20,286 nt of DNA from a virus: IMG/VR virus record IMGVR_UViG_3300030107_000343, positions 1-20,286 of that record; one strand, 5' to 3'. The translations under genes and the position numbers were made by a program. Below, piece by piece: positions 707 through 14,246 of this stretch. Position 1 is the first letter of the stretch, and every line of letters starts with the position of its first letter. The notes under the pieces were generated by a model, which was given only the letters and a program-made list of their open reading frames with translations, was not told where the DNA came from and ran no database searches.

Positions 707-3679
707 CTATTCGCAATTACAGTTGTTAAGTTTTTCAGTTAGCTCGTCTACTTTAGTAGAAAGCTCTTGTACCGCTTTGACCATGATTGGCATTAAAGCC
801 CCCTCACCAACACGTTGTCTTTTATCTTCACCAGACTCACTCCACAATTCAAAACCATCTTTCAAGTCATATCGATCAATAACTTCTTTAACTTCTTGTG
901 CAATAAAACCGTGGTTATACTTACCGTTCATTACTCGTTCTTCAGAATCAGGATCGTGCACTTTCATTTCTGAAGGCACATCTTTTGCTTTTCTCCAAAG
1001 ATAAGTAACAGGTCTTAGTTCATTAACAAATTTAAGACCAACTTTTTCATCTTGAATGTCTTCTTTAAGGCGAACATCTGAAGGAGCAGTAACTGAGGTG
1101 CCCCCAAATGCAATATTACTGTCTGTGCTAGCTTTGCCAAAAGTAAAATTACTATTACCTGTACCAGTTACGTTATACCCAATCACTACTTGTGTGTCAG
1201 CAGCAGCAGCAGAAGGATGACAGTAACTTCCGATTATAACATTGTTTGAGCCTGTCTCGAGGTTGACACCATAAGAACCCGCATCATGTCCAATTACTAC
1301 ATTATGATTACCAGTAGTAAGAAGATCGCCAGCAGACGAACCTAACATAGAGTTGAAACCACCAGTAGTTATGTCTGAACCGGCATAGTATCCAATTATG
1401 GCGTTGTAGGAACCCGAAGTTGATTGCTCCATAGCATGATAGCCGAGAGAGCTGTTGTAATTACCATTACTTGCAGTCAACATACAGGATGCACCGACTG
1501 CAGTGTTTGTGCTGGCGTTAACCACTTGTAACGCCTTCTCTCCAACAGCGGTGTTGTAATGCCCTGTGGTGTTTCCACTTAGCGCAGCCATTCCAATTGC
1601 GGTATTCGACTCGCCATCAAGGTTTGCATCTAATGCAGTTGCTCCGACTGCGACATTAGAATGGCCTGTAGTGTTCGTTAGCAGGGCATCAAAACCAACT
1701 GCGGTATTAATTTCGGCAGTCGTGTTGGCATTTAAAGCCCGATAACCCACGGCAGTATTTCCATCCGCCGTAGTGTTAGAAGCAAGAGCATTATGACCAA
1801 CAGCGGTTGAGCGATCTCCGCTTGTGTTGTCTAACATAGCCTCTTTTCCAACTGCGACATTATAAGAGGCAGTGCTGTTGTTTGTTAAAGCATGATACCC
1901 GACTGCGACACATTGCCCTCCTCCAGTGTTTGCGGCTAAAGCAGCAGACCCCACAGCAGTATGGTAGTTACCATCCGTATTTGCTCCCAATGCTCCCTGT
2001 CCGATTGCTATATTGTGAGCGCCCGTGGTGTTCGCGTCTGCGGCTTGGTGTCCAATGGCTACATTATTTGAAGCTGTGGTGTTGTCATTAAGTGCATCAT
2101 GGCCGATTGCTACGTTGTATCCACCAGTGGAATTGTTTAACAAAGCCCCTCGACCCATAGCAGTATTACTTACACCTGTGTTGAGCTTTAATGCACTTGT
2201 GCCTACCGCTGTGTTGTTTGCGCCTGTAGTGACTGTTAGTAAGGCATTATACCCCACCGCAGTGTTGTCTGAAGCCGTGGTGTTATTTGATCCCGCAAGA
2301 CCTCCAACAAAGGTAAGTCCTTGTCCAGTAGTATTATCTAAACCTGATTCATAACCTACTGCCACATTGTACACATTAGTAGCCGTAGTAAAGTTTTGAT
2401 TTAATAGAGCCGAGTAACCTAGAGCAGTTGACCTAGACCCTAAAGTATCTCCACCTAAAGAGTGCATTCCTATCGCTGTGTTCAAGCCACCCTCTGTCAA
2501 AGAATCACCAGAATTTGCTCCAACAAGCGTGTTTTGCAAACCTGTGGTAATTGCTGTTCCTGCAACATATCCAACCGCAGTAATGTTTGATGCGGTGGTG
2601 TTTGAAAGAAGGGCATCCTTACCAATACCTATGTTGTTAGCCCCTGTGGTGTTGTTATATAGAGCATAATCTCCAACACCTACATTGTAAGATCCTGTGG
2701 TGTTTAACTCTAAACTAGCGTTCCCTAAAGCAGAATTCTGCGCTCCTGTCGTATTTGTTCGTAAGCTGTCTTTACCAACAGCAGTGTTCTTAGCGGCTGT
2801 AGTGTTTGCTGCTAAAGCATCAAAGCCAACTGCGGTGTTGTCTGAGGCTGTAGTGTTTGCTTCTAGCGCACTAGCTCCCACGGCTGTATTATAATTTCCA
2901 GTTGTAGTGGCTTCCATAGCTGAATCACCGATCGCTGTATTATAACCAGCAGCAGTTGCTACTAATAAGGCATCCTTACCTACTGCTGTATGGTTAGAAC
3001 CTGTGGTATTAGCTCCTAAAGCTCCTTGTCCAAGTGCGGTATTTGCTGTACCTGTTGTATTTGCGTCTAAAGCACCTGATCCGACTGCTGTATTGTTAGA
3101 AGCTGTGGTGTTTGCACCACCAGCATTGTCACCGACAAAAGTGTTGTCAGATCCGCTTGTAAGCGCATCACCCGCAGCCTCACCAATAGCTACGTTATCT
3201 GTACCTGTGGTAAGCCCTGTGCCAAACGCGCCGCTACCAAGCCCTACGTTGCCTGTACCGCCTAGTACGTCTAGGACATCAGTAACCGCAGCGCCAGAGC
3301 CAGCACCATCAGTAGCTACCATGCGGATACCGCCGTTTGGTATGACCACATTTGCGCCTGTCCCTGCGGTTAATGTAACTGTGTCACCAGCGGAGTTTTG
3401 TATTACCCATACGTTAGAAAGAGTATTTGGAGCCAGGGTAACTGTACAAGCCTGTGAGAGAGATCCTGTGAGGGTAAGAGCCATCGAGCGAAAGGCGTCA
3501 CTAGCCCCATCCGCCATCGTAATCGTTGCTGTAGAGGCATCTGAAAGAGCTTCCGATCCTGTCCCAAATTTTTCCGCGATCATTTCCAGGTTCAAATTTG
3601 TGGTCGTGCCCCAAGTTCCTGAACCATCGCCTGTCGCCATTTCATTTAGGCGAAGATCGTTTACATATGTACTTGTCAT
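707..3679 (-). CDS. Tail fibre/spike with about 40 YadA-head-like repeats and C-terminal S74 chaperone domain
   Basis: The protein has 990 residues. Residues 1-60 (TYVNDLRLNEMATGDGSGTWG) match a virion-attachment N-terminus common in marine phage fibres. Residues 144 to about 829 hold about 40 copies of a 17-residue unit of the type NTAVGxxALxxNTTGxx. This resembles the head repeats of trimeric autotransporters, which build a parallel beta-roll. Residues 867-990 form an intramolecular chaperone of the peptidase S74/endosialidase type: SDVRLK places Ser867 and Lys872 five residues apart, as in the known Ser-Lys self-cleavage dyad, followed by GFIAQEV and a terminal heptad coiled coil. It probably folds as a trimer, releases its chaperone by autoproteolysis and binds the host surface. 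The Shine-Dalgarno GAGGT precedes the ATG, just after the upstream stop. The last residues, CNCE, are Cys-rich. Confidence 0.92.
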   Translation of the reverse strand: MTSTYVNDLRLNEMATGDGSGTWGTTTNLNLEMIAEKFGTGSEALSDASTATITMADGASDAFRSMALTLTGSLSQACTVTLAPNTLSNVWVIQNSAGDTVTLTAGTGANVVIPNGGIRMVATDGAGSGAAVTDVLDVLGGTGNVGLGSGAFGTGLTTGTDNVAIGEAAGDALTSGSDNTFVGDNAGGANTTASNNTAVGSGALDANTTGTANTALGQGALGANTTGSNHTAVGKDALLVATAAGYNTAIGDSAMEATTTGNYNTAVGASALEANTTASDNTAVGFDALAANTTAAKNTAVGKDSLRTNTTGAQNSALGNASLELNTTGSYNVGVGDYALYNNTTGANNIGIGKDALLSNTTASNITAVGYVAGTAITTGLQNTLVGANSGDSLTEGGLNTAIGMHSLGGDTLGSRSTALGYSALLNQNFTTATNVYNVAVGYESGLDNTTGQGLTFVGGLAGSNNTTASDNTAVGYNALLTVTTGANNTAVGTSALKLNTGVSNTAMGRGALLNNSTGGYNVAIGHDALNDNTTASNNVAIGHQAADANTTGAHNIAIGQGALGANTDGNYHTAVGSAALAANTGGGQCVAVGYHALTNNSTASYNVAVGKEAMLDNTSGDRSTAVGHNALASNTTADGNTAVGYRALNANTTAEINTAVGFDALLTNTTGHSNVAVGATALDANLDGESNTAIGMAALSGNTTGHYNTAVGEKALQVVNASTNTAVGASCMLTASNGNYNSSLGYHAMEQSTSGSYNAIIGYYAGSDITTGGFNSMLGSSAGDLLTTGNHNVVIGHDAGSYGVNLETGSNNVIIGSYCHPSAAAADTQVVIGYNVTGTGNSNFTFGKASTDSNIAFGGTSVTAPSDVRLKEDIQDEKVGLKFVNELRPVTYLWRKAKDVPSEMKVHDPDSEERVMNGKYNHGFIAQEVKEVIDRYDLKDGFELWSESGEDKRQRVGEGALMPIMVKAVQELSTKVDELTEKLNNCNCE
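710..1081 (-). other. S74-type intramolecular chaperone/autoprotease domain of the tail fibre
   Basis: Residues 867-990 of the fibre. Seen: SDVRLKEDI at the domain start, L(R)PVTYLWRK, HGFIAQEV, and a terminal helix VQELSTKVDELTEKL with heptad spacing. In the known family the chain is cut just before the Ser after trimer folding, with a Lys five residues later as partner. Both residues are present here, so the domain looks active. Confidence 0.88.
1193..3250 (-). repeat. About 40 tandem 51-bp degenerate repeats coding 17-aa beta-roll units
   Basis: The repeats encode residues 144 to about 829 of the tail fibre. I counted roughly 40 units starting at each N-[TVI]-[AG]-[VIL]-G. Most are exactly 17 residues; a few have one residue fewer or three to four extra (for instance around residues 420 and 800). 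The DNA copies are diverged, not identical. The strict 51-base period also keeps antisense frames open, which explains several spurious plus-strand ORFs here. Confidence 0.9.
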
Positions 3680-5162: not shown

Positions 5163-5801
5163 TTACGATACTGGGACACTAGCTTGCCCCGAATAGTATG
5201 TATCCTGTTGCAATTTACCATCACCAAGATTTTTCAATAAGGTTATGGATTCTAAATACATATTATTATAAATCTGAACCATATCAGGTTCACCTTTCAT
5301 AAATCGTATAGCTTCTACTAAAGACCTATTTAATAACGCAGAATCAAAATTCTCACTTAGCCAAGGTAGTGTACTTGCTGTAACAATGGATTCAGGATAA
5401 TACCCGTAATGCAGTTCCATCGTATACCCGCTATTTGGGGTTGGCCCTAAGATAAAAGAAGAATCATCAAATATAGCGTAATGTTTAGGGACTCCTGTAG
5501 TTGAAGGGTTAGGATATGCTTCACGGATAAAATTAACATCTTTGTTTAAAAGATATGTGTATACCCCATCCGAATCCGCTACAGCCAAGCTATAGGTATA
5601 AAGAAAATCTGTAGGTACTGATAAGTACTTATTACCCGAAGTCAACGCTCCTGTTACATTTTTACGAAGCGAAGGAAGCTGTACAGTGTTATAAATAGCC
5701 TGTTCAGCCTGTTGAGCAAACATAGCAAGCTGATCGCTTGTAAAGGAAGTCTCACAGATATCCTCTATATTCGCCGTTAATTGGGCATAAGTCATACTCA
5801 T
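5163..5801 (-). CDS. Putative head-tail adaptor protein, 212 aa
   Basis: The N-terminus (TYAQLTANIEDICE, then QAEQAIYNTVQLPSLRKNVTG) and the middle (YLSVPTDFLYTYSLAV) resemble the phage adaptor family that docks on the portal ring and forms the neck of short-tailed phages. Length is usual for that group. The ATG overlaps the stop of the 55-aa gene in ATGA, and no strong Shine-Dalgarno is seen, so expression probably depends on coupling. A second ATG two codons later is possible. Together with the 228-aa connector-like protein this would give a two-layer neck below the portal. Confidence 0.65.
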   Translation of the reverse strand: MSMTYAQLTANIEDICETSFTSDQLAMFAQQAEQAIYNTVQLPSLRKNVTGALTSGNKYLSVPTDFLYTYSLAVADSDGVYTYLLNKDVNFIREAYPNPSTTGVPKHYAIFDDSSFILGPTPNSGYTMELHYGYYPESIVTASTLPWLSENFDSALLNRSLVEAIRFMKGEPDMVQIYNNMYLESITLLKNLGDGKLQQDTYYSGQASVPVS

Positions 5802-5965
5802 GCAAGCGTACCACGTACCATCGTACCTTTAGTCGCAGCACCTGCGCCGCGCATCTTAATCCCAGAAGTTTTAATCCCACTCATATCAGGTTTGGGGGCA
5901 TCTTTACAAGGGTATACACCCTTATCTTTATGCACTTTAACCTCTTTCATATCAAATACGTCCAT
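5798..5965 (-). CDS. 55-aa protein with RGAG-type C-terminal motif
   Basis: A small gene fits exactly between its neighbours. The ATG at 5965-5963 has a strong Shine-Dalgarno AGGAG that overlaps the zinc-ribbon gene's stop, and its TGA overlaps the next ATG. The sequence starts MDVFDMKEVKVHKDKG and ends KMRGAGAATKGTMVRGTLA. The RGAGxAxKG core is the same as in the three basic proteins at 7256-9341, suggesting a shared motif. The protein contains one Cys (residue 20), is basic and has no membrane segment. I do not know its function. Tight packing on both sides supports it as a real gene. Confidence 0.75.
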   Translation of the reverse strand: MDVFDMKEVKVHKDKGVYPCKDAPKPDMSGIKTSGIKMRGAGAATKGTMVRGTLA

Positions 5966-5974
5966 TTTACGCTC

Positions 5975-6328
5975 CTATGAAGTCACTATGGTTACTGTTC
6001 CTATTTCTCCCGTCCCAACTAAATCGTTAGGTGTTAAATCATACGGGTCTCTTCCTACACCCACCGGGTTCCATCCCCACTGGGTATCTCTACTTTCTGT
6101 TAATTCCGCAGTATCTGAACGCGGGTCTCGTATTGCTTGAGGATCATTAACAGGGAACTCGCCTAATCTTAACTGGGGTTGATCAGGGTTCCAACACTCA
6201 GGACACGCTTTTATATGCGTATTCCTACCTTTTTCAACTAGGTCTTTAAGTTCTCTTAGTTTGTACTGAAATCCACAAACATCACAGATCCCTAATGCTT
6301 TTCGGGCTGAAGCAAAGCGATTTGCCAT
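5975..6328 (-). CDS. Zinc-ribbon virion-cluster protein, 117 aa
   Basis: Cys15-Asp-Val-Cys18 and Cys42-Pro-Glu-Cys45 form two CxxC knuckles 23 residues apart, a classic zinc-ribbon layout. The following CWNPDQPQ stretch matches a small marine phage protein family with no assigned role. The C-terminal half is Gly/Pro/Asp-rich and ends GTGEIGTVTIVTS, likely an extended beta tail. The ATG lies two bases after the stop of the connector-like gene, with only a weak Shine-Dalgarno. It could be a metal-stabilised neck or plug piece; a nucleic-acid-binding role is the alternative. Confidence 0.75.
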   Translation of the reverse strand: MANRFASARKALGICDVCGFQYKLRELKDLVEKGRNTHIKACPECWNPDQPQLRLGEFPVNDPQAIRDPRSDTAELTESRDTQWGWNPVGVGRDPYDLTPNDLVGTGEIGTVTIVTS

Positions 6329-6330
6329 TT

Positions 6331-7017
6331 CTATACATACCCAATACGAGGAACAAATCTAGCAGAAGTTTTTTCCCTGTCTTCTCCTGCTGCTAGATTA
6401 AATTGTTCTTCATAAATTTCTTTTAGCATAGGGACACGAGGCATTAATTCAGGATCTTTCTGGGCAATATAATAGGCTAACCCTGCCATTAATGCGGGTA
6501 GAAACCTAAAATTCATATCCGCAGTTTCAACTCCAGAACCAGCGTCTTCTATCCGACGCATACGCCAATAATAAAACACATACCCACTCTTATCTGGTAC
6601 AGGCCAGACATTTATCTTAGGGGTTGTACGAAGACGCTCCACATAAACCTGTATTGGTCTACCTTCTGATAATTTATTAGGGATAGACGAATAAGTGCTG
6701 ACACTAATTCGACTTATCGTAAGGTCTTGCTGAGTAGTTGCATTACCTGAATCTGTACGAACAACGTGTTCTAACAGGTCAACCGTATCAGCGGGTAGGT
6801 CATATTCAGACGTACCCTCAGTTAACGTGACTGACCCCTCATCTACCGTCCATAAATTTATCCCTCTATTTTGCCATTCAATAGTCAATAAATTCATAGA
6901 CCTACGAGCGGTTCGCAAATCATAACCCGCCCGCATTTCACGCCCAGCGCGTTCCCACGCTTCTTCAGCGATCTCCGTAAAATCAGGATTAAAAGCAGTA
7001 GTGCCGGATGTCGCCAT
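6331..7017 (-). CDS. Putative head-tail connector protein, 228 aa
   Basis: The N-terminal part (EIAEEAWERAG, then RTARRSMNLLTIEWQNRGINLW) is a helical motif recurrent in marine phage proteins annotated as connector or tail-accessory. The remainder is a beta-rich section with YDLPADTVDLLE and a helical section near FLPALMAGLAYYIAQK. The layout is similar to the adaptor at 5163-5801. I infer that it forms one ring of the neck. Its ATG directly follows the TAG of the Lys-rich gene, and the purine-rich codons for that gene's Lys tail (AAGAAGAAG) probably serve as its ribosome-binding site. A tail-tubular role is an alternative. Confidence 0.6.
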   Translation of the reverse strand: MATSGTTAFNPDFTEIAEEAWERAGREMRAGYDLRTARRSMNLLTIEWQNRGINLWTVDEGSVTLTEGTSEYDLPADTVDLLEHVVRTDSGNATTQQDLTISRISVSTYSSIPNKLSEGRPIQVYVERLRTTPKINVWPVPDKSGYVFYYWRMRRIEDAGSGVETADMNFRFLPALMAGLAYYIAQKDPELMPRVPMLKEIYEEQFNLAAGEDREKTSARFVPRIGYV

Positions 7018-7245
7018 CTACTTCTTCTTAGCTGCTTTCTTAGCTGGTTCTTTCTTAGCGGGTTCTTTCTTAGCGGCGGCTTTCTTAGGCGGTTGTAACT
7101 CTTTTAATCGAGCTTTTGCCTCCTCTTCACTCATTAGGTCAGCATCTACGATGGCATAAGAACCATTCTCCTGCTTAACACCAATCTGAAATACAGGTCT
7201 GCCATCTACGAAATTACCGTTTTGATAGACTTCAAATTTATCCAT
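7018..7245 (-). CDS. 75-aa protein with Lys/Ala/Pro tail
   Basis: The first 50 residues are an ordinary small beta/alpha domain (FEVYQNGNFVDGRPVFQIGV). Residues 51-75 are almost only Lys, Ala, Pro and Glu, with repeated AKKEP units like linker-histone tails. This tail could bind packaged DNA or another polyanion. The Shine-Dalgarno AAGGAG sits just before the ATG. I do not recognise a family. Its location next to three basic proteins supports a link with virion DNA, but this is inference. Confidence 0.75.
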   Translation of the reverse strand: MDKFEVYQNGNFVDGRPVFQIGVKQENGSYAIVDADLMSEEEAKARLKELQPPKKAAAKKEPAKKEPAKKAAKKK

Positions 7246-7255
7246 ACAAGTCTCC

Positions 7256-7963
7256 TTACCTCATTTTAGCAGGTCGTACACCCTTACGGGCTATACCTGC
7301 ACCACGAACTTTTGGTTTCCTTTTCTTAACTTTACCGCCTTTTTTGTACCCTTCTGCCCTTTCTCTTCTTTCTTCCGCACTCATCTTTTTAACAGGCTCG
7401 TCATCACGACTTTTACCCCATTTTTCATAAGCAAGCGCACCGGCAACAGGAACGGCACCAGCTCCCACAGCTTTCAGTCCTGTCTTTATTAAATCTCTTC
7501 TCGCCTTTATGTTCTCTGGTTTTTTCTTTTGGACATTTTTCTTTTCTGTACGTTGGGCTTTAACTCTTTTCTGCTGTAATTTCGGTGACTTTTCTAGTTT
7601 ACGTACTGACCCCCGAGTTTTTAAAGGGTTTTTAGGGTCTACCCGCCCTGTTGTAGGGCTGTTTATGTAGTCATCTAACTCTCGGGCACTTTTATTTTCA
7701 TAATATTTGCCCCTAGCATCAAACATTTTGTCATATTTGTCCTGAAGGTTTTTATCTTTAGGGTCGGTTTTACCGGTTTTACCAAGAGACTTACCATATT
7801 CTTTACTTTTCTCTTTCAGCGTTTGGTAAGCTTTACCTTCTTGCCCGCGTTCTTTTTGTTTAACTGCTTGACGTACAGCAGTCTGACCGTATTTTTTTAT
7901 GGCCGCTTGTACCCCTTGTCTACCTATAAACGCTATTACGGCTGCTATTGCTGGTGCGGGCAT
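7256..7963 (-). CDS. Basic protein A of the RGAG-motif family, 235 aa
   Basis: The N-terminus has a modestly hydrophobic Ala-rich helix (residues 1-18, PAPAIAAVIAFIG). The middle is extremely Lys/Arg-rich, then residues around 165-185 are Gly/Ala-rich and hydrophobic (LKAVGAGAVPVAGALAY) and could insert in a membrane. The last 24 residues contain GGKV, then VRGAGIARKGVRPAKMR. The same end is found in the two following basic proteins. I know no function. Candidates are an internal virion protein that binds DNA or is ejected with it. The Shine-Dalgarno TAGGAG precedes the ATG and overlaps the stop region of basic protein B. Confidence 0.75.
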   Translation of the reverse strand: MPAPAIAAVIAFIGRQGVQAAIKKYGQTAVRQAVKQKERGQEGKAYQTLKEKSKEYGKSLGKTGKTDPKDKNLQDKYDKMFDARGKYYENKSARELDDYINSPTTGRVDPKNPLKTRGSVRKLEKSPKLQQKRVKAQRTEKKNVQKKKPENIKARRDLIKTGLKAVGAGAVPVAGALAYEKWGKSRDDEPVKKMSAEERRERAEGYKKGGKVKKRKPKVRGAGIARKGVRPAKMR

Positions 7964-7973
7964 ATTTTTTCTC

Positions 7974-8591
7974 CTATCTCATCTTACAGGCGCGTACACC
8001 TTTTTGGCATATCCCTACACCACGAATTTTACCGCCTCTCTTGTACCCCGGAACAGCGGGCTTTTTAACTACCCCACCGGCATTCTTCTTAGTCTTTTTT
8101 GGGCCTTTTAAAACGCTTTCGATTTCTTTAGCCGTTTTCTTAGGGTCTTTTTTGTCAATGCTACGTACTGTCCCCTGTCTCTTATTAAGCTTCGTATCTT
8201 TAAGGGCATCGCCAAGTTTAACATCCCCAGATGCTAAATCTGCTAAAGTATAGGATCTACCACTTTTAGTATTAGGGTTTGTTTTCTTGGTTTTTCCAGC
8301 AGCCGCCTTTCTTGCTTTAGACTCTTTTTCTTCTCTATCGTAATCGTCCTTAGCCCACTTCCAAAATTTTTGTTGTACTCCAGATTGTTCTAAAGGATCA
8401 TCTCTGGTAGGAGATTTTTGATGCTTCTTAACGGCAGCACGTACTTCTTCTCTAGTTACAGTTTTACCCTCTTTATACCCTTTAACTGGCCCGCCTTTTG
8501 TATGGTGCGCCCTGCGGTAGGCGGCTCTACTAGACCAACCGCCCGTTCGACTTCTATCATTTGCTGGTCTATATGCAGCTCTTCTAGGCAT
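7974..8591 (-). CDS. Basic protein B of the RGAG-motif family, 205 aa
   Basis: The N-terminus MPRRAAYRPANDRSRTGG and a central Lys-rich region give a strongly positive protein without any membrane segment. A short stretch RQGTVRSIDKKDPK resembles TRGSVRKLEKSPK of basic protein A. The end is GYKRGGKIRGVGICQKGVR and then ACKMR, nearly the same as its neighbours. Another GGPVKGYKEGKTV segment near residue 32 resembles part of the motif. The ATG follows a TAGGAG ribosome-binding site that overlaps the stop of protein C. Function unknown; a DNA-binding or internal-virion protein is the main inference. Confidence 0.75.
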   Translation of the reverse strand: MPRRAAYRPANDRSRTGGWSSRAAYRRAHHTKGGPVKGYKEGKTVTREEVRAAVKKHQKSPTRDDPLEQSGVQQKFWKWAKDDYDREEKESKARKAAAGKTKKTNPNTKSGRSYTLADLASGDVKLGDALKDTKLNKRQGTVRSIDKKDPKKTAKEIESVLKGPKKTKKNAGGVVKKPAVPGYKRGGKIRGVGICQKGVRACKMR

Positions 8592-8600
8592 ATCCTTCTC

Positions 8601-9341
8601 CTATCTCATCTTACAAGGGCGTACGCCCTTACGAGCGATTCCTGCACCGCGAACTTTACCGCCTTTTGCGTAACCTTTGGGTTCTTCCATCCGACGTTTT
8701 ACCCGCGATAGCCTTCTTTTTATCCTTTTCTTCCTGCCTTCACCTACAGACTCAGAAGCAAGGCGCTTCTTCAACCTTTCAGCCCTACGCTCTCGAAAAG
8801 ACTTTTTCTTTGTGTCAGCCTTACCTTTGGAATCCTTCTTTGGCTTTGCTTTCTCTACCGCAGAACCATCGGCTCGCTTTAATCCAAGGGCTTTATTGTA
8901 AGCGTCTCGTTTACTTAGCGTTGGATCTAAATCCTCTTTAAAAAGAGCGGCTTTCTTTTTACCGTCTTTACCCATGTAATACTTCGATCCGGCTTTTTTA
9001 GCAGCCGCGACAGACTTGTATTGCTTCCACTTAGGGCCAGTAGCAGCTTCCTTTTTGGGTCTTGTCATCTCAGAATAGTTAACAGCCCCACCAATAGGCG
9101 GTAGATAGGGGGTTGTTTCACTTTCTGGCTTCATTTTGCTTTCCGGCTTGGGCCAATTCTTCCTCATACCCGCAACGAAATCTGCCTCATCTTTAGCTTT
9201 CGTAGCCATCCTCTTTCTTTCCAAATCTAAAGCGGCATCATCCGACATTTGCTGTCCTCTTTTATATCGGTCAGTCGCTTGGTATGCAGGGTCTGCATTA
9301 CGCCTTAGTATCCTTTCTTTCTGCGCTCTTGACATTGCCAT
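8601..9341 (-). CDS. Basic protein C of the RGAG-motif family, 246 aa
   Basis: The N-terminus MAMSRAQKERILRRNADPAY is helical and charged. The C-terminal half contains dense Arg/Lys helices (RERRAERLKKRLASES, RKKRIKRRLSRVKRRMEE) that look like nucleic-acid or capsid-interior binding helices. The end is GYAKGGKVRGAGIARKGVR and then PCKMR. No enzyme motif or signal peptide is visible. The ATG follows AGGAG with normal spacing. It is the first of three consecutive genes with this end, suggesting duplication or shared targeting. Function unknown. Confidence 0.75.
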   Translation of the reverse strand: MAMSRAQKERILRRNADPAYQATDRYKRGQQMSDDAALDLERKRMATKAKDEADFVAGMRKNWPKPESKMKPESETTPYLPPIGGAVNYSEMTRPKKEAATGPKWKQYKSVAAAKKAGSKYYMGKDGKKKAALFKEDLDPTLSKRDAYNKALGLKRADGSAVEKAKPKKDSKGKADTKKKSFRERRAERLKKRLASESVGEGRKKRIKRRLSRVKRRMEEPKGYAKGGKVRGAGIARKGVRPCKMR

Positions 9342-10660: not shown

Positions 10661-11569
10661 TTACGCTCCGGGTGAACCGTACACGCCAAGTGGGTCAGAT
10701 ACCCCAAATGAGTATCGCTCCCTTGCTTTATAACGACTATTGCCCGTATCAAAGTCAGCGTCCATAGACGTAGACATTGCTGTACGAGTAAAGTGCTTCA
10801 AGCCATTAGGTACGTCAGTCATAACGAACCACGCATCAGTATCGGTAAGATAATGATTTACCGCGTAGCCTTCTGGTATAGAACCATTGCTACGCATCGC
10901 GTTGATGTCGTTATCTGCTGTACCGACCCGACCCTCAGTTTCCAACAACCGTGTTGCAACGAATTGCAGTGCGGGTGGGATAATGAGTTTCTTAGGCCGA
11001 GCAGCAATAAGGAGACTACGCTCATCAGTCCAGCCAGCTATGTCGATAACAGCCGCTTCCAAAGAAGTTTCGTTAAGGTCAGCAGCGGTGCTGGGACGGT
11101 TAGAGTTAGTACCTCCAGATACTAGTGGGTGGGCAGTCGAACACAAAGTCTGACCATCACCATAGGTAGTACCAGCAGCAAAGGCGTTGTTCAAAATTGA
11201 AGCACCTTTAACTTGTTTGGTATATGCCATAGCGCGAGCCAATGCTTTGGTATAGCGAGACGATAGCGAGTCATAAAGGTTATCTTCGATAGCCTCTTCA
11301 GTAACACTGAAACCCATTGCTATTGTTTCGTGATTATACCTAGCAGTCCATGCTTCTTGTGCATTGTCATATTCGATGGCAGAGCCTTCGTTTTTAACAG
11401 GTGCAGCAGAGAAACCGGACAGTTTGGTTTCTTCTTCAAAAGAACGGTCAGAAGATTCAGATTCAAAAATCTCCTTATGCTCTTCCCCATATTTAGCGTA
11501 CTCCAGTCCAAACAAAGCGTTTAGTCCGGGCAGGAGTTCCTTTAATAGTTGGGCGCGAGAAATAGCCAT
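10661..11569 (-). CDS. Major capsid protein (HK97-fold, Mu gpT-like)
   Basis: The N-terminus has MAISRAQLLKELLPGLNALFG and residues 71-75 AWTAR. The pattern FSVTEEAIEDNLYD, then LCSTAHPLVSGG, TSLEAAVIDI, KKLIIPPALQFVATRLL and YSFGVSDPLGVYGSPGA corresponds to the major head subunit family related to Mu gpT, which uses the HK97 fold. Length (302) fits that family. No N-terminal delta domain is seen; scaffolding is provided by the separate gene at 12649-13665. The Shine-Dalgarno AGGAG lies nine bases before the ATG, and a strong terminator follows directly. The high-expression logic and place after a decoration-like gene fit the call. Confidence 0.9.
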   Translation of the reverse strand: MAISRAQLLKELLPGLNALFGLEYAKYGEEHKEIFESESSDRSFEEETKLSGFSAAPVKNEGSAIEYDNAQEAWTARYNHETIAMGFSVTEEAIEDNLYDSLSSRYTKALARAMAYTKQVKGASILNNAFAAGTTYGDGQTLCSTAHPLVSGGTNSNRPSTAADLNETSLEAAVIDIAGWTDERSLLIAARPKKLIIPPALQFVATRLLETEGRVGTADNDINAMRSNGSIPEGYAVNHYLTDTDAWFVMTDVPNGLKHFTRTAMSTSMDADFDTGNSRYKARERYSFGVSDPLGVYGSPGA

Positions 11570-13675: not shown

Positions 13676-14056
13676 CTATGCCTTTTGGATACCACGAGGA
13701 TCATCCACTACTGCTTCAATGGAATCATCATTCATTAAACGATACTCTCGTCCATCTACGGTAAACCGTGTACCTGAATTGGCGCGAAACATAACATAAT
13801 CACCTTGTTTACACCACGGCCCTGTAGGGAATCTTTCTGCATCAGCGTAACACTGATCCCCCATATCTAATACAAGCCCTATTATGGACATAATGTATTC
13901 ATGGTGTTTGGTGGTGTTTGCTTTTATCAGGTCTGAACCATCAAAAGTTTCTTCAACAAAAGGGAGTGCTATCAATACCCTATACCCCACAGGTTTGGGT
14001 AATTGTGCGTCAAGTTCTTGTTCTCTAGCTTCTATAGATTTTGCTGCTTTAGCCAT
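13676..14056 (-). CDS. GroES-like co-chaperonin (Cpn10), 126 aa
   Basis: The start at 14056 is chosen because GGAAG lies six bases before it and ATGGCTAA overlaps the upstream stop. An ATG at 14089 would add 11 residues inside the previous gene. Residues 20-32 (PKPVGYRVLIALP), 60-66 (GLVLDMG) and 82-117 (CKQGDYVMFRANSG, GREYRLMNDDSIEAVV) match the Cpn10 beta-barrel. The stretch 33-53 is in the place of the mobile loop that contacts GroEL. It likely works with host GroEL to fold the capsid protein, as known for T4 gp31. The N-terminal 19 residues are extra. No GroEL-like gene is seen. Confidence 0.72.
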   Translation of the reverse strand: MAKAAKSIEAREQELDAQLPKPVGYRVLIALPFVEETFDGSDLIKANTTKHHEYIMSIIGLVLDMGDQCYADAERFPTGPWCKQGDYVMFRANSGTRFTVDGREYRLMNDDSIEAVVDDPRGIQKA

Positions 14057-14246
14057 CGTCATCTTCCAAATAATTGCGCGAGAGGTCATCTATGTATCCT
14101 AAACAGGTTTGTAGACCCCGAATTAAACCTGTTACCTCTTGATACTGAGAGAAGTCTTTAGCTCCTCCACCACCAAGAAATTCTAATGCAGAGGATTTAT
14201 CTTCCTCGATTTTTTCTTTCAATACGTCAAAGACGGTTTTAGCCAT
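14049..14246 (-). CDS. Small conserved phage protein, 65 aa
   Basis: The sequence FDVLKEKIEEDKSSALEFLG, then VTGLIRGLQTCLGYIDDLSRNY is a helical, charged small protein that I have seen next to portal genes in marine phages, with no known function. It ends in an acidic EDDDG tail. The ATG lies two bases after the portal stop, and no strong Shine-Dalgarno is visible beyond a purine-rich AAAGGTAAAG stretch. The end overlaps the co-chaperonin start. A portal-associated or assembly factor is a guess from position. Confidence 0.8.
   Translation of the reverse strand: MAKTVFDVLKEKIEEDKSSALEFLGGGGAKDFSQYQEVTGLIRGLQTCLGYIDDLSRNYLEDDDG

Follow-up and report, generated by a model that had tools for sequence, protein, structure and literature searches.

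A conserved C-terminal peptide on dissimilar basic proteins in the head gene block of an aquatic phage lineage

The stretch of DNA analysed here, the IMG/VR virus record IMGVR_UViG_3300030107_000343 (20,286 bases, hereafter the window), is a fragment with mechanically made gene calls in which several small proteins end in similar peptides. This terminal peptide, hereafter the tag, is anchored at the protein end and conserved at the protein level, and it occurs on many unrelated bodies encoded in the packaging-head-neck block of one phage lineage, with nearly always one tag subtype per genome. On balance, the tag is probably a short docking or targeting peptide through which variable accessory proteins, mostly basic, reach the head during its assembly.

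Three adjacent open reading frames on the minus strand of the window encode proteins A (8601-9341, 246 aa, net charge +43), B (7974-8591, 205 aa, +36) and C (7256-7963, 235 aa, +40), which end in YAKGGKVRGAGIARKGVRPCKMR, YKRGGKIRGVGICQKGVRACKMR and KKRKPKVRGAGIARKGVRPAKMR, respectively, and have in common the 16 residues R-G-[AV]-G-I-[AC]-x-K-G-V-R-x-x-K-M-R up to the stop codon. The tags themselves lie on the same strand at 8604-8651 (RGAGIARKGVRPCKMR, protein A), 7977-8024 (RGVGICQKGVRACKMR, protein B) and 7259-7306 (RGAGIARKGVRPAKMR, protein C). A fourth minus-strand open reading frame, at 5798-5965, encodes a 55-aa protein. All four genes are considered credible because AGGAG-like ribosome-binding sites precede them and the isoelectric points of the three large products exceed 10 (10.4-10.5, with net charges of +36 to +43). 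Protein A has relatives in IMG/VR, and a relative of protein C is found at 2341-3054 of locus L006. The preliminary description had reported the motif on three adjacent, highly basic proteins with otherwise dissimilar bodies, and both points hold, since the bodies of A, B and C form three separate clusters once low-complexity K/G/M sequence is masked. Pfam and PHROGs scans of the three proteins returned nothing usable. For protein A, AlphaFold predicted a helical N-terminal part at an overall predicted template modelling score of 0.25 and an unstructured tag (predicted local distance difference test 42-46), which is weakly consistent with a linear motif.

The 55-aa protein, which has relatives of its own, had been described as carrying the core of the same motif. 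Its end (KMRGAGAATKGTMVRGTLA, up to the stop codon) is indeed related, but scores 5.2 against the tag matrix, under the threshold of 12, and 43 of 20,000 shuffles reach that score. It is a single-copy member of its own family, encoded just before the nozzle/tail gene, and family comparison assigns its conserved 17-residue end (RGAGAATKGTMVRGTLA, 5801-5851, minus strand) to a GPM-type tag variant. Across the family, identity averages 77% over the last 17 residues but is 21-25% over the remainder, and the core stands exactly 8 residues ahead of the stop in 130 of 131 proteins. The end of the 55-aa protein is related to the main tag but distinct and separately conserved.

To follow the tag beyond the window, IMG/VR was scanned with degenerate DNA patterns. 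Although the pattern of the window type (VR) itself contained no stop codon, all 90 of the matches listed (80 loci) were in frame and stood exactly one residue ahead of the stop. Two other subtypes are also anchored C-terminally, namely KT (R-A-D-G-x-A-x-K-G-K-T-x-G, freshwater) and FG (R-G-x-G-A-A-x-R-G-x-x-F-x-G); the FG pattern, likewise without a stop codon, lay exactly two residues before the stop in 125 of 126 among the matches listed. Pattern scans select for their own residues, and unbiased statements rest on loci chosen by capsid or adaptor and not by tag (2,724 genes). In these, 81 genes carry an exact C-terminal tag versus none of 16,200 shuffles of the last 30 residues of the same proteins, and 164 of 174 occurrences of a relaxed core are C-terminal, the other 10 being internal. 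The C-terminal motif exceeds chance, which confirms the original observation and shows it to be wider than first noted. When the position matrix was applied to all loci, 429 of 466 tagged proteins had the tag within 12 residues of the C-terminus (347 at the exact end, offset 0-1, and 82 more), 18 had it elsewhere, and in 19, all from one family of 61-64 aa, it was N-terminal. The restriction to C-termini about which the preliminary description had asked thus essentially holds for the window and KT types. The family (MAYTRSADGIAKKGKTEGKN...) carries a KT-type motif at its N-terminus, as at 13865-14053 of locus L080, with relatives in L045, L068, L090, L103, L259 and others, and its gene stands directly before a gene of the 55-aa type in several contigs.

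The window-type pattern was not matched in any of the prokaryotic genomes searched, which represent 84,980 species of bacteria and archaea, a result that fits lytic phages. A PDB sequence search with the tag peptide gave nothing. Short tag peptides gave no tblastn match in phage records either, probably on account of their length and of low-complexity masking, since tagged isolates exist. No description of the motif was found in the open-access literature, although such absence is weak evidence. An exact C-terminal placement is also known from C-terminal degrons, and the tag might accordingly be a protease or chaperone signal, a degron or a maturation cleavage site. We regard this as very improbable: some tags bear extensions of 5-9 residues, one family has the motif at the N-terminus, the long contigs described below were scanned with no KT-pattern match beyond the slot upstream of the adaptor gene, and no stand-alone prohead protease was matched among the proteins of the window, itself a fragment, that were scanned with PHROGs.

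The peptide is maintained while its codons vary. The 127 distinct DNA versions of the window-type tag translate into 52 peptides, and codon variation is near background at most positions. Since synonymous sites vary while the peptide stays, selection acts on the protein, and an RNA- or DNA-level element was rejected on the same grounds. Between tags on unrelated bodies within one genome, codons differ at 1,151 of 2,319 identical residues (1,474 expected from independent draws), and only two of 226 such pairs have no codon difference, indicating that the tags are not recent copies of each other. Recent gene conversion was therefore rejected as well. Spread of functionless ends among neighbouring genes by duplication or recombination would explain why neighbours share them, and one example of tail exchange is at hand: at 1465-2331 of L006, the body of protein A (84% identical) continues into the linker and tag of protein B and, beyond the tag, into a few altered or additional residues, a natural exchange of ends. 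As a full account, such spread is scarcely credible, because the synonymous sites have diverged around a fixed peptide that is conserved across contigs on unrelated bodies.

The bodies carrying the tag are numerous and basic. Those with enough unmasked sequence, 352 in all, fall into 210 clusters without detectable similarity to each other, including 173 singletons, and the net charge of tagged proteins is +0.141 per residue versus -0.002 elsewhere. The largest cluster is marked by an SKKQHNFM module; another is defined by a YKSxAAAKKAG...KEDL...SLRDY region that recurs in part in protein A of the window, and both clusters bear KT as well as VR tags. Among 73 tagged representatives compared with Pfam and PHROGs, only DUF6321, EF-hand loops (Pfam matches in two of the 73) and the SKKQHNFM module stood out. 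EF-hand-like loops (LDKNKDGKISGEDF, LDKNSDGKISGEDF) were seen in slot proteins at L002 33143-33508 and in a gene of L180 starting at 119.

The strong basicity of the tagged proteins, the K/G/M-rich repeats of their bodies and the abundance of R, K and G in the tag suit the main rival explanation, in which the tag is a nucleic-acid-binding tail (histone- or RG-rich-like) of DNA-condensing proteins that contacts phage DNA or RNA and involves no protein partner. Nevertheless, we consider this rather unlikely. In the tag, non-basic positions are conserved about as strictly as basic positions (two Gly at 95%, Ala at 83%, Met at 71%), the distance to the stop is exact, and the lineages keep fixed differences (GVR versus GKT) that non-specific DNA binding does not require.

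The tag is confined to one phage lineage, characterised by an SU10-type adaptor and comprising relatives of HTVC023P and Pag-Yong1 (more than 90% of the contigs picked by each pattern). Other head-module genes were present on 112 of 120, 113 of 119 and 113 of 120 contigs picked by tag pattern alone, among the matches listed, and all pattern-picked contigs that had none were shorter than 5.5 kb. Two isolates of the lineage encode tagged proteins: Pag-Yong1 has one of 308 aa ending in GRDGCAKRGRTKGRFI, and HTVC023P has gp32 and gp51. Among the tagged genes of the window and KT subtypes whose position could be assigned, 390 of 399 follow the capsid gene, precede the adaptor gene, or both. The KT pattern was also run over 14 long contigs (51-87 kb): its 19 matches are all on the coding strand and no more than about 2 kb upstream of the adaptor gene, and a reversed-pattern control gave none. 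The capsid-to-neck location asked about in the preliminary description is thus essentially borne out for the window and KT subtypes, but not for the FG subtype, most of whose genes are found between TerL and portal or between portal and GroES. Genes of the 55-aa family stand between the adaptor and nozzle genes, directly before the nozzle/tail gene.

These two latter placements, FG-type genes between TerL, portal and GroES and the 55-aa family between adaptor and nozzle genes, would be natural if the tag docked assembly factors on the outside of the portal or neck or on the terminase, with no packaging inside the head. Such outside docking seems improbable to us, as it leaves the high basicity and the high turnover of the bodies unexplained, and two of the body modules are present in proteins from the virions of other phages.

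The first of these modules, SKKQHNFM, forms the N-terminus of CBB FDG95_gp322, which from the matching numbering is presumably CBB_322, a protein that mass spectrometry detected in virions (30 unique peptides, 43.57% coverage; PMC5259590). The second, DUF6321, is encoded by a neighbour in the tagged slot, is itself tagged in L103, and makes up the C-terminal part of S-CREM2 gp137, which was found in the virion of that phage with 4 unique peptides (PMC10665884). The presence of tagged proteins in virions is thus suggested through body modules that they share with virion proteins of other phages. Roughly 40 aa long (MPSxSKKQHNFM...GVPQSVGKDF), the SKKQHNFM module shows about 77% identity between proteins of aquatic podoviruses (for example L045 9176-9553) and those of phiKZ-like jumbo phages (phiKZ PHIKZ165.1, NC_004629.1 171676-171804). 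PHIKZ165.1, 121Q gp51 and CBB_322 share it at the N-terminus with the largest tagged body cluster, whereas the complete copies examined (KTN4_204, 121Q gp51, Eowyn gp244 and Rhizobium phage gp083) have no C-terminal tag. DUF6321 occurs in these podoviruses as a stand-alone small basic protein that is sometimes tagged, and in cyanomyoviruses as the C-terminal domain of a larger protein encoded between the terminase genes (loci noted: L103 2124-2444, L045 8670-8915, L004 23227-23472 and L422 1541-2749).

A peptide that is anchored at the end of variable bodies, has one subtype per lineage and is found on head-block genes only follows the pattern expected of a docking peptide. Conservation at the protein level, the basicity of the tagged proteins and the natural exchange of ends in L006 count in favour of this reading as well. 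In the explanation we favour, the tag would be a linear docking peptide read by a single partner that the phage itself encodes, and would direct the tagged accessory proteins to the head during assembly, most likely to the inside of the procapsid. We infer that this putative partner is located in the procapsid, where the scaffold, the inner face of the capsid or the portal would be candidates, and that the tagged proteins end up in the virion; the delivered bodies may help to condense DNA or may enter the host together with it.

Several points weigh against this explanation. Being rich in Arg, Lys and Gly, the tag could itself bind nucleic acid. With the FG-type genes situated around portal and TerL, docking to the portal or the terminase is as possible as encapsidation. 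No tag was recognised in the slot of 27 of the 114 contigs that have capsid as well as adaptor, although variant ends are visible in some of them. Encapsidation is supported indirectly, since our searches turned up no virion proteome for a tagged phage. Meanwhile, KT and VR tags are mixed in only two of 120 loci with at least two tags, compared with a mean of 53 and a minimum of 41 when the labels are shuffled; but the subtype changes just five times among 199 adaptors and three times among 92 capsids on the respective trees, so that the single subtype per genome largely reflects shared descent. Independent subtype switching was for this reason dropped as proof of co-evolution, three to five changes being too few to decide. 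What stands out is that the subtype is constant across a lineage while the bodies turn over.

The order of genes on the minus strand of the window is TerS-like, TerL, portal, a small protein, GroES, a protein in the scaffold position, two small proteins and capsid, followed by two small proteins, the three tagged basic proteins, a 75-aa protein and the SU10-type adaptor, and then by a 117-aa protein, the 55-aa protein and the tail genes. The tagged slot is bounded on its 5' side by the major capsid protein (MCP) gene (10661-11569, minus strand; phrog_371, E=1.8e-20) and on its 3' side by the adaptor gene (6331-7017, minus strand; PF24175, E=3.4e-12). It also holds the open reading frame of the 75-aa protein (7018-7245, minus strand), which has a K/A-rich end and no tag. 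The MCP is 63-69% identical to its counterparts in HTVC023P, HTVC027P, DSL-LC04 and Pag-Yong1, matches PF25209 and Mu-like gpT, and aligns with capsid-protease profiles over their later part. For TerL, identity is 45-46% to those of the pelagiphages HTVC027P and HTVC023P and 42-46% to those of DSL-LC04 and the Planktothrix phage Pag-Yong1, and the portal matches phrog_1216. By these similarities, TerL, capsid, portal and adaptor are all related to the HTVC023P/SU10-like lineage of short-tailed phages, to which the window belongs. In addition, a phage-encoded GroES co-chaperonin (13676-14089, phrog_3188) is situated within the head gene block, and a 990-aa fibre-like protein (707-3679) has many NTAVG-type repeats and an end that, by eye, resembles an S74 chaperone domain.

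The tagged phages are relatives of cultured pelagiphages, and those of the HTVC023P type have been described as widespread (PMC9599517). Should the tag serve as a head address, hundreds of small proteins that lack annotation would fall into one functional class, and the genes that make virion cargo could be predicted. Proteins could then be loaded into phage heads by means of a C-terminal handle, and the tag would point to delivered proteins with a possible action on host defences as infection begins.

Among known systems, encapsulin cargo-loading peptides are C-terminal too and direct different cargoes into a shell of the HK97 fold. They differ from the tag in sequence and serve no phage packaging, and their cargo consists of enzymes and not of basic phage proteins. 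The SU10 adaptor is related to that of the window lineage, and this short-tailed phage carries in its head the ejection proteins gp20-24, which are released at infection (PMC9509320). To judge from their numbering, they are encoded downstream of the tail genes, unlike the tagged genes, and no end tag common to them was seen, though no search was aimed at one. A closer likeness in kind is offered by the internal proteins of T4, which are diverse and have in common only a capsid-targeting sequence (CTS) (PMC3012670). In both cases, a short conserved terminal peptide, that of IPI-III and Alt in T4, is found on otherwise very diverse head proteins (PMC3012670, PMC5694885), and here it is carried by bodies of 210 clusters with exact C-terminal anchoring. 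However, the T4 CTS is N-terminal and is removed by the gp21 protease, whereas the present peptide is C-terminal (429 of 466 within 12 aa of that end) and unrelated in sequence, and no separate prohead protease was recognised among the scanned proteins of the window, a fragment. Because of this position and because no cleavage system was recognised, the tag is not assigned to the T4 CTS family. Tentatively, we put forward the possibility that an abundant aquatic phage lineage uses C-terminal address peptides, in lineage-specific subtypes, to load its heads with an open-ended range of basic proteins that act as effectors or pack DNA; these peptides might then be a C-terminal and perhaps uncleaved counterpart of the T4 CTS.

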